Source: Zoogloea sp. (GTDB lineage Bacteria; Pseudomonadota; Gammaproteobacteria; Burkholderiales; Rhodocyclaceae). Taken from it: a stretch of DNA of 64,000 bases. Position 1 is the stretch's first letter. Each line of letters starts with the position of its first letter. Where the stretch lies: the NCBI GenBank assembly GCA_016703645.1, contig JADJBR010000007.1, positions 1,572,501 through 1,636,500 of the forward strand, given 5' to 3'. Position numbers and translations under genes: made by a program. Under the pieces are notes generated by a model, which was not told the origin of the DNA, ran no database searches, and saw only the letters and a program-made list of their open reading frames with translations. Below, one piece after another: positions 3,443 to 6,703 of this stretch.

Positions 3443-3871
3443 TTAGATCGCGAGAACTTTGGGCTGCTGGGCGGCATGCGGATGCTCGGCACCGGCGTAG
3501 CACTTCATCTTCTTGAGCATGGCGTAGCCGAGCGGGCCCTTGGGCAGCATGCCCTTGACAGCCTTCTCAAGCACGCGAGCGGGGAAGCGCTGCTGCAGCT
3601 TGGTAAAGTTAGTTTCGTAAATACCACCCGGGTAACCGGAGTGACGATAGTACTTCTTGTCCTGGGCTTTGTTGCCGGTAACACGCAGCTTTTCGACGTT
3701 CACGACGACGATGAAATCACCGGTATCGACGTGCGGCGTGTAGATGGCCTTGTGTTTGCCGCGCAAGCGTCGCGCAACTTCGGAAGCAAGCCGACCAAGG
3801 ACCAGGTCCGTCGCGTCTACAACGAACCAGTCGTGCTTGACCTCATGCGGCTTGGCAGAAAACGTTTTCAT
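3443..3871 (-). CDS. rplM: 50S ribosomal protein L13
   Basis: L13 is an early-assembly protein of the 50S subunit. The 142-residue length is typical, and the conserved core is present ([36 protein letters not shown]). It is the first gene of the rplM-rpsI operon, with a TGAGGA ribosome binding site and a TTGACA promoter 60-90 bases upstream. A candidate small RNA ends just upstream of that promoter in the same direction. Confidence 0.98.
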
Positions 3872-3929: not shown

Positions 3930-3959
3930 ATTCTATCGCGCAGCTCGGGCCCTTGTCAA
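3930..3959 (-). promoter_or_regulatory. sigma70-type promoter of rplM-rpsI
   Basis: On the minus strand a perfect TTGACA (3954-3959) and TAGAAT (3930-3935) are separated by 18 bases, upstream of the rplM start. Confidence 0.75.
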
Positions 3960-3974
3960 ACCCTATCGAGAGAT

Positions 3975-4006
3975 AAAAAAAAGCGCAGATCGGGGAGATC
4001 TGCGCT
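3975..4006 (-). terminator. intrinsic terminator of the candidate sRNA
   Basis: A perfect 10-bp stem (3997-4006 with 3982-3991) has a 5-base loop and is followed on the minus strand by seven T. No coding gene transcribed leftward precedes it, which supports a non-coding transcript. Confidence 0.85.
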
Positions 4007-4077
4007 AAATCCACACCAAAGGAGGAGGGTGGAGGAGACACCTTTCAGTCGCTTCAAACCACAAAAGCAACTGGACT
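3975..4077 (-). ncRNA. candidate small regulatory RNA, anti-Shine-Dalgarno type
   Basis: No gene lies to the right on the minus strand, yet this stretch has a promoter, structured body and intrinsic terminator in that direction. The predicted start is near 4077, 7 bases after a GATAAT box. The RNA would be ~103 nt: a 5' hairpin (9-bp stem, 4065-4073 with 4046-4054, one G-U pair), a C/U-rich stretch holding two CTCCTCC-like motifs (4019-4042), and a 10-bp terminator stem with a U tract. The C/U stretch can also sit as the loop of an AAAGG/CCTTT stem. C/U-rich loops that pair with ribosome binding sites are a known sRNA design. An alternative is a terminated leader of rplM, but rplM has its own promoter downstream. 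No Rfam search was possible. Confidence 0.6.
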
Positions 4078-4083
4078 GAGTGA

Positions 4084-4112
4084 ATTATCGCGCCAGAAAC
4101 GGCGAGGCGCAA
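4084..4112 (-). promoter_or_regulatory. sigma70-type promoter of the candidate sRNA
   Basis: On the minus strand TTGCGC (4107-4112) and GATAAT (4084-4089) are separated by exactly 17 bases. The -10 box matches the consensus at five of six positions; the -35 box is weaker. Confidence 0.6.
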
Positions 4113-4384
4113 GCTATTTTTGTGCGTCGCACCACAAATCTTTTGATTCATATATAAACAAAATTAATTCACAGAAAAATAGATCCAATCAATTGATTTA
4201 AAACAACAAATATGAGAAAAATAGCCAGCCTCAATAACTCGCCAGGATGCTAACCGAAGCCAAGCATGGTGCACTGCAGCACAACTACCGTGCCCATCCC
4301 GATTAAGCAAAGCTACAATCCGTGCTCATCGGGCAGGCCGGAACGCCGGAACTGCCCCCACGCGATCAAGGGAGATAGCGCAGC
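4113..4384. other. gene-free stretch, AT-rich in its left half, with two palindromes
   Basis: No coding frame is convincing here. Bases 4113-4250 are clearly more AT-rich than the surrounding genome and lie directly upstream of the sRNA promoter, where they could act as an UP element or regulator site. Two perfect palindromes are present: GTGCGTCGCAC (4122-4132, odd-length with a central T) and AATCAATTGATT (4187-4198). The right half should hold the osmC promoter; a TACAAT at about 4313-4318 is a possible -10 box without a clear -35. Confidence 0.4.
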
Positions 4385-4801
4385 ATGGAATGCTTAGTGA
4401 AGTGGGTGGACGGGATGAGCTTCATGGCCGAAACAGGTTCCGGACATGCGGTGATGATGGATGGAGCACCCGAAGCCGGTGGGCGCAATCTTGCTCCACG
4501 CCCCATGGAAATGATGCTGGCTGGCGCAGGCGGATGCACGGCTTTCGACGTCGTCCTCATCCTCAAACGTGGCAGACAGGACGTCACGGACTGCAGCGTC
4601 AGCCTGAAGGCGGAGCGCGCCGAGACCGACCCCAAGGTCTTCACCCGAATTGCCTTCCATTACACTGTCAGTGGCCGCAATCTGAAGCCGGACAGCGTCG
4701 AGCGGGCGATCAAACTGTCTTATGACAAATACTGTTCCGCCACGATCATGCTCAGCAAGACCGCCCAGATCGAACACACCTGGGAGATCGTGGAGGCCTG
4801 A
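4385..4801 (+). CDS. OsmC family protein
   Basis: OsmC/YhfA-type proteins are small cytoplasmic dimers, some of which reduce organic hydroperoxides with a pair of cysteines. This 138-residue protein has the family core around GGCTAFDV (first cysteine near residue 56) and the later segment around KYCSATIML (second cysteine near residue 119). The spacing and the PMEMMLAGAGGCT motif fit the YhfA/OsmC subgroup. The ATG follows AGGGAG. It stands alone, convergent with coq7. The peroxidase role is inferred from the two cysteines only. Confidence 0.88.
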   Translation: MECLVKWVDGMSFMAETGSGHAVMMDGAPEAGGRNLAPRPMEMMLAGAGGCTAFDVVLILKRGRQDVTDCSVSLKAERAETDPKVFTRIAFHYTVSGRNLKPDSVERAIKLSYDKYCSATIMLSKTAQIEHTWEIVEA

Positions 4802-6097: not shown

Positions 6098-6691
6098 TCA
6101 ACCTGCGATGGCCGCCTCGATTTCGGCAAAGGTGCGCGCCACTTCGGTCGTCTGGAGGGGAATACCCATCTGGCGAGCGATCTGCGATGCAGAAAATATC
6201 CCTCGCAACGACAGATCGCCGTTCCCTCCCTCCTCCACAACCAGTGCATGCTGACGACCGCACGCCTTTAGGGTCGAAACCACATGGCCCACCTCCGAGC
6301 GAAGGACGTCGGACAGCGAAACGGCATCGAGCTCTTCCGTGGCAACCATGATGTCCCGAACGACAAGCTCCTCGTGGCGCATCATCCGCTCACCCGCCAC
6401 GCGCGTCGGCTTTTCTCCCAAGAGATCGTTGGAAGTGATCACACCGACGACACGCCGGCTGAGGTCGGTCACAAATAGCAGACGAACCCCGCGCAGGATC
6501 ATGCTGTGATTGGCCTGAGCCAGCGAAAGATCATGGGCAATTGTCGCCGCGGGAATTTTGCGCAGGTCGGTCATGACCTCTATGGCTGGCGAAGATGCCG
6601 TGACCTTCGCCATGCTCCATGGGTCGGAAATCTCGCAGACCCCGCTACGGACACGAAACTGTTTGATCGGCTGATAGTGCAAGCGCTCCAT
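6098..6691 (-). CDS. CBS-domain protein
   Basis: This 197-residue soluble protein carries two CBS motifs, the first around residues 25-85 (VTDLSRRVVGVITSNDLLG) and the second around 105-180 (LRGIFSASQIARQMG). CBS pairs bind adenosine nucleotides and act as sensors; no catalytic domain is attached. The ATG at 6691 is chosen because GGGAGGAG lies 5 bases upstream, while the longer frame start has no such site. The bases from this Shine-Dalgarno to the base before the ATG are perfectly complementary to the candidate sRNA at 3975-4077. It heads a run of three genes (CBS, CNP1-like, coq7). Confidence 0.85.
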   Translation of the reverse strand: MERLHYQPIKQFRVRSGVCEISDPWSMAKVTASSPAIEVMTDLRKIPAATIAHDLSLAQANHSMILRGVRLLFVTDLSRRVVGVITSNDLLGEKPTRVAGERMMRHEELVVRDIMVATEELDAVSLSDVLRSEVGHVVSTLKACGRQHALVVEEGGNGDLSLRGIFSASQIARQMGIPLQTTEVARTFAEIEAAIAG

Positions 6692-6703
6692 GGTGTCTCC
6701 TCC
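6692..6703 (-). promoter_or_regulatory. CBS-gene ribosome binding site, predicted sRNA target
   Basis: The mRNA reads GGAGGAGACACC directly before the ATG. The candidate sRNA contains the exact reverse complement (plus-strand 4031-4042), giving a 12-bp uninterrupted duplex over the Shine-Dalgarno. Pairing would be expected to block ribosome entry. This is a prediction from sequence. Confidence 0.55.

Follow-up and report, generated by a model that had tools for sequence, protein, structure and literature searches.

A family RF02278 small RNA gene upstream of rplM in Zoogloea sp. with a predicted PhaR-type operator

Introduction

The small RNAs (sRNAs) NcS27, S17 and NmsR pair with Shine-Dalgarno (SD) sequences, and anti-SD repression has been shown for NmsR (PMC5362039) and S17 (PMC11722255). 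Expression is reported for members of Rfam family RF02278 in Burkholderia, Bordetella and Herbaspirillum, with four members in Herbaspirillum RNA-seq data (PMC7011215), and for the related NmsR in Neisseria. Burkholderia members of the family rise in glucose medium, in starvation and in biofilm, and NcS27 overexpression attenuates growth (PMC5688073). Statements here about published RNAs refer to passages of the papers cited. We describe a relative of these RNAs in a 64,000-nucleotide stretch of Zoogloea sp. DNA (assembly GCA_016703645.1, contig JADJBR010000007.1, positions 1,572,501 to 1,636,500), hereafter the window. Its gene is predicted on the minus strand, upstream of rplM, and a palindrome before its promoter resembles the operator of the repressor PhaR.

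The window sRNA shares its CU-rich single strand, CU-rich loop and terminator with NcS27 and the double-hairpin RNAs of Burkholderia cenocepacia (PMC5688073, PMC4603805). BCAL3348a and BCAL3349 flank NcS27; since BCAL3348 is listed as a ribosomal protein gene, NcS27 may be the positional equivalent of the window sRNA. NcS27 is likewise processed from a longer form. This group differs in its sequence upstream of the core; the passages of PMC5688073 and PMC4603805 describe no PhaR-type site, though they mention an upstream motif that three of the four RNAs share. In S17 of Bordetella pertussis (PMC11722255), a stretch of 27 nt is given as 100% conserved across several Betaproteobacteria, Aromatoleum among them; S17 is processed from a longer form to about 67 nt and adjoins coq7. 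Unlike the window sRNA, it is controlled by BvgA and carries a leader of roughly 120 nt, and its flanking genes partly differ.

NmsR of Neisseria meningitidis (NmsRA/NmsRB, RF02877) likewise has two anti-SD sites between a 5' hairpin and a terminator, occurs as sibling copies and represses metabolic mRNAs (PMC5362039). It differs in that its levels depend on RelA and in its Rfam family. MmgR of Sinorhizobium meliloti (RF00519) is alike at the promoter: PhaR (AniA) represses this Hfq sRNA, which also carries an anti-SD motif, at a similarly built site (PMC12542648, PMC8401924, PMC7143759), but MmgR belongs to another RNA family by the covariance test below. We found no link between RF02278 and PhaR in the literature searched; one may be in print in Sass 2019 (NcS27), Kimelman 2012 (toxic clones), Ceizel Borella 2018 (mmgR control) or the upstream motif figure of PMC5688073.

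Family assignment and distribution

The core of the window sRNA (Table 1) scores 65 bits with the RF02278 (Betaproteobacteria_toxic_sRNA) covariance model, above the cut-off of 50 (E 8.6e-13) and well outside what chance would give. The features of the family are present: a double hairpin, two CU-rich sites and an intrinsic terminator, with the second hairpin between the CU-rich stretch and the terminator. Scores with the models of NmsRb (RF02877; 40.6 bits, cut-off 52) and mmgR/suhB (RF00519; 21.6 bits, cut-off 41) are below their cut-offs. Homology to mmgR/suhB was also rejected in relatives, where 2 of 18 match, both below cut-off, and MmgR is kept as an analogy only. A sequence-only reading of the window had observed a candidate sRNA here and suggested an Rfam search; at the level of sequence, an RF02278 gene at 3975-4077 is confirmed. 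That reading's interpretation, an independent sRNA with CU-rich pairing loops, is supported by the Rfam match, a covarying 5' hairpin and copies away from rplM. The RNA itself is ordinary, one more member of an already described family. What is added is the promoter signature, and it is the predicted PhaR-type operator that merits closer attention.

At least 119 stretches of other genomes carry the exact 32-nt CU-rich core, mostly between rplM and a divergent gene that we take to be OsmC-like. Among 160 core sites, a count that excludes the source genome's own duplicates (L001 and L002), 120 adjoin rplM, osmC or coq7 in the same order, 36 lie elsewhere and 4 are too near a contig end. The 120 syntenic sites include 97 with both rplM and osmC, and 6 are duplicates. 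Loci of Herbaspirillum, Noviherbaspirillum, Limnobacter, Herminiimonas and Tepidiphilus have the same neighbourhood, and osmC-rplM appears to be the family's place across Rhodocyclales and in some Burkholderiales. RF02278 is matched in 146 of 150 genomes of a family sample at E 0.01 (112 over cut-off) and in 60 of 140 genomes of an order sample at E 1e-7 (55 over cut-off). The source genome gives eight rows, six of them below cut-off; the two above are the window sRNA and a second copy at C7:220888-220957 (58.1 bits), which adjoins a MOSC-domain gene. Three congeneric genomes have 4, 5 and 5 matches. Protein identity of the sRNA's neighbours marks the source genome as Zoogloea-like, rplM being 99% identical to its counterpart in a Zoogloea MAG. 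Spread on mobile elements was considered and rejected, as a 71-base query had no match in plasmid (E 1e-4) and phage (E 1e-3) collections.

Being on the same strand as rplM, at a conserved position upstream of it, the element could instead be an rplM leader or attenuator whose terminator governs read-through into rplM. We regard this as highly improbable and reject it. The sRNA has a separate promoter and terminator, rplM has its own promoter after that terminator, and related RNAs are described as short transcripts. With 36 of the 160 core sites away from rplM, the sRNA is not simply an rplM leader; the sequence-only reading had argued the same from the rplM promoter, and the distribution now agrees. 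The copies fall into two classes: syntenic copies have a hairpin-bearing leader, and the others mostly have a -10 box directly before the core. Primary transcripts of the non-syntenic copies would thus start about where the processed forms of NcS27 and S17 (S17S) start.

A palindrome upstream of the sRNA promoter

The palindrome TGGTGCGACGCACAA, absent from the sequence-only reading, matches the operator type of PhbF/PhaR by sequence resemblance. PhbF, the PhaR of Herbaspirillum, has the footprint consensus TG[N]TGC[N]3GCAA (PMC3206438), and in Sinorhizobium, binding assays back PhaR sites of this form at phaP2 and at the sRNA gene mmgR (PMC12542648). Fourteen bases, AATTGTGCACCGCA, are common to the mmgR site and the operator of the second copy in the source genome.

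In the 160 nt before the core, 86 of 113 syntenic copies and 31 of 37 other copies have the motif TGCRNYGCA, compared with 4.0 and 1.2 in dinucleotide shuffles. These counts leave out duplicates and copies less than 160 nt from a contig end, and the 'other' class includes copies of unresolved context. In a control stretch from the terminator to rplM, the strict motif is found in 0 of 98 cases and the looser TGCN3GCA in 1 of 98 (median length 115 versus 160 nt). The motif also has preferred positions. From TGC start to -10 start, the distance is 42 bp in 46 of 88 counted syntenic cases (61 at 40-44) and 22 bp in 22, and it is 22 bp in 27 of 34 counted cases of the other class. The 42-bp and 22-bp positions are 20 bp apart, roughly two turns of the helix.

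The source genome has one PhaR gene (PF07879, E 6.9e-30) and six phasin matches, and TGCN3GCA lies within about 150 bp upstream of five of the six (L175 is without it). A PhbF-type pattern, TGNTGCRNYGCAMMA, gives 35 rows at 31 distinct places versus 1 row for the reversed control. These places include both sRNA promoters and four of the six phasin promoters; since the pattern was shaped after the published consensus and the phasin and sRNA sites were known, those hits are not independent tests. Other sites precede MaoC/phosphate acetyltransferase-like, FabI-like and patatin-like genes (the best NCBIfam models for the first two, PRK08190 and PRK07533, are below their cut-offs with 170 residues). 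Sixteen of the 31 places are flagged as lying within a long reading frame, so some may have no regulatory role; phasin promoter sites are among those flagged, so the reading-frame call is crude. The exact palindrome TTGTGCNNNGCACAA with one mismatch allowed gives a weaker signal (10 places versus 4 in the control).

A second PhaR-type site, TGCTGCAGTGCACCA, lies in the window at 4267-4281 on the minus strand, some 111 bp ahead of where the osmC-like gene starts.

Motif and PhaR across genomes

PhaR is found in 144 of 150 genomes in the family sample. Three PhaR-less genomes of one genus (G052, G105 and G141) have only below-cut-off sRNA matches, and the PhaR-less G084 (79% complete) has no sRNA match. 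Loci of that same genus (L185, L186, L187, L191 and L196) show degenerate sRNA-like matches, several with CCCUCCCU replacing the usual core.

The order sample has PhaR in 98 of 140 genomes. Among its 60 genomes with the sRNA, 43 have PhaR and 17 do not, 10 of the 17 being named as lacking it and 7 assigned by absence from the PhaR list. The strict motif occurs at 41 of 68 sites (33 of 43 genomes) with PhaR and at 0 of 23 sites (0 of 17 genomes) without it, a comparison over all 91 sites that phylogeny confounds. The loose TGCN3GCA is present at 44 of 68 versus 4 of 23 sites and, with one mismatch allowed, the motif is present at 53 of 66 versus 6 of 23 (89 of the 91 sites). Counted by family over 89 sites, the motif appears in 17 of 20 families with PhaR-bearing members (in f42 only at an odd position) and in 0 of 7 without.

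Several observations weigh against PhaR control. There is no strict motif at 27 of the 113 syntenic copies, and 4 of the 33 PhaR-bearing genomes with a strict motif have their sole hit more than 112 nt from the core. G136 keeps the motif though PhaR was not found (90% complete), G012 without PhaR keeps a one-mismatch site, and families f20 and f46 lack the strict motif despite having PhaR. In the window, the palindrome is upstream of the -35 box, which is less usual for a repressor. We found no TGCN3GCA upstream of the source genome's phaR in the fetched locus; in Herbaspirillum, PhbF binds its own promoter. Finally, the PhaR-less genomes represent few lineages, most of them sharing another promoter, so the link between PhaR and the motif is supported but not proven.

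In that other promoter, seen in most PhaR-less genomes and in PhaR-bearing G228 and G255 (one copy), a near-palindrome resembling TATTAGATAATNCTAATA encloses the sRNA -10 box about 42-58 bp upstream of the core (L210, L219, L223, L247, L264, L270, L272, L274, L277, L278 and other loci). It may be the site of a different regulator.

An RF02278 sRNA could also carry the operator of another regulator that recognizes TGC-N3-GCA, or a palindrome that serves osmC. The PhaR assignment is by resemblance, a second such site stands 111 bp before osmC, and the exceptions in PhaR presence (G136, G012, f20 and f46) fit such an explanation. It accounts less well for the copies away from osmC, most of which carry the motif at the 22-bp position, and for the same motif before phasin genes. 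We therefore judge it unlikely, though the strongest competitor to PhaR control.

Proposed role and candidate targets

Zoogloea-type bacteria are polyhydroxybutyrate (PHB) formers of activated sludge. We consider it probable, from the sequence comparisons, that the window encodes a trans-acting RF02278 sRNA under a PhaR operator, and that this sRNA rises as PHB accumulates. PhaR, a repressor that leaves DNA upon binding PHB granules, would act at 4120-4134 and keep the sRNA repressed until then. By analogy with its relatives, the 103-nt RNA would be trimmed to about 66 nt, bind Hfq and block translation of mRNAs for catabolism and transport by pairing with their ribosome-binding sites through its two CU-rich sites. 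The cell would then cut back on taking up and degrading more carbon substrates.

With less conviction, we lean towards a general form of this proposal: in Betaproteobacteria that form PHB, RF02278 sRNAs may serve the PHB-sensing PhaR regulon as its post-transcriptional arm. Granules would titrate PhaR, sRNAs and phasins would be released, and the ribosome-binding sites of carbon-catabolic genes would be shut. This stored-carbon feedback would parallel PhaR-MmgR of Alphaproteobacteria on an RNA that is not detectably related, with another promoter type in PhaR-less lineages. If true, the operator names a transcriptional signal for a widespread sRNA family and connects PHB storage to the translation of uptake and breakdown genes.

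Candidate targets were sought with GGAGGAGAC, the complement of site 1 extended beyond the SD. It occurs 1-9 nt before an ATG at 14 places in the source genome versus 2 for the reversed pattern, a lenient control given how often an SD precedes ATG. The antisense of the second sRNA copy accounts for one place; this and three others precede frames of fewer than 50 codons. Predicted targets among the remainder are an acyl-CoA dehydrogenase, an aldehyde dehydrogenase, an AMP-binding ligase, a 2Fe-2S protein, a response regulator, a DUF2244 protein and a CBS-domain protein. AGAC is the commonest 4-mer after GGAGG before an open reading frame (ORF) in 0.94 Mb from relatives and the window (6 of 90, permutations 0-2), a ranking drawn from 90 ORFs, many near related loci.

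The core might instead bind ribosome-binding sites without target choice, as a general translation inhibitor, which would explain the name 'toxic'. It does resemble the 16S anti-SD, and cloned relatives reportedly inhibit E. coli (attributed elsewhere to Kimelman 2012). On the other hand, one pairing extension beyond the SD is favoured, and NcS27 is described as affecting growth on some substrates only. We think general inhibition quite improbable beside targeted repression.

The CBS-domain gene in the window has a ribosome-binding site, GGAGGAGACACCATG (6689-6703, minus strand), complementary to the sRNA beyond the SD and is a predicted target. At C9:325506-325663 of the source genome (L297/L317), the DUF2244 gene is preceded by both a GGAGGAGAC ribosome-binding site and a PhaR-type site, with some 140 bp between the two.

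Gene structure and its conservation

Most parts named by the sequence-only reading are present as described: the sigma70-type promoter with 17-base spacing, the C/U-rich stretch with two CTCCTCC-like motifs, the 10-bp terminator with its U tract, a length of about 103 nt and the separate TTGACA promoter of rplM. The 5' hairpin is there too, but with 10 bp rather than 9. RNA 3975-4076 (102 nt) folds at -39.9 kcal/mol (z -5.98), and none of 200 shuffles is equally stable. A consensus scan of the window lists the terminator, although shuffles average 1.0 such sites, and the rplM promoter; the sRNA promoter, with its weak -35 box, is not listed.

Table 1. Predicted features at the sRNA locus, in window coordinates
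Feature	Position	Strand	Basis or remark
sRNA gene, family RF02278	3975..4077	-	about 103 nt, start predicted near 4077; family score, folding
-35 box TTGCGC	4107..4112	-	sequence; 17 bases before -10 box
-10 box GATAAT	4084..4089	-	sequence
5' hairpin, 10 bp	4046..4073 (arms 4073-4064 / 4055-4046)	-	folding, covariation
Predicted anti-SD site 1, UCUCCUCC	4031..4038	-	in CU-rich stretch
Predicted anti-SD site 2, CCCUCCUCC	4021..4029	-	in CU-rich stretch
RF02278 core	3975..4040	-	near expected 5' end of processed form, by analogy with S17S and NcS27
Intrinsic terminator and U tract	3975..4006	-	10-bp stem 4006-3982, U's to 3975
Proposed PhaR operator, palindrome TGGTGCGACGCACAA	4120..4134	-	TGC start 42 bp before -10 box
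Separate rplM promoter TTGACA-18-TAGAAT	3930..3959	-	consensus promoter scan
rplM (L13), downstream neighbour	3443..3871	-	
OsmC-like gene (presumed), divergent neighbour	4385..4801	+	

Alignment, as the sequence-only reading had proposed, shows a 5' hairpin that covaries in two clades and an invariant CU stretch. In ten Zoogloea-like copies, 97.0% of the 5' hairpin is paired and two pairs are changed on both sides; over the whole structure 98.8% of cells pair, which 2 of 500 shuffles reach. In 19 Azonexus/Dechloromonas-type copies, five of the seven pairs of the 5' hairpin have both-sided changes, and the covariation score of the whole structure is reached by 0 of 500 shuffles. Related sequences can exceed such shuffles even without structure. 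The invariance of the CU stretch in both alignments is partly due to selection, as relatives were collected by exact core, and the middle hairpin never varies and is thus uninformative by itself. Across 112 folded syntenic leaders, the median z is only -1.0 against mononucleotide shuffles, so as a feature of the copies in general the 5' hairpin is weak, and its support is the covariation in two clades.

Exact-core copies also occur in clusters of two to four within 8 kb (L071, L078, L056, L114 and L045) in Aromatoleum, Azoarcus sp. Aa7 and Cognatazoarcus, with four copies in Aromatoleum tolulyticum and Azoarcus sp. Aa7.
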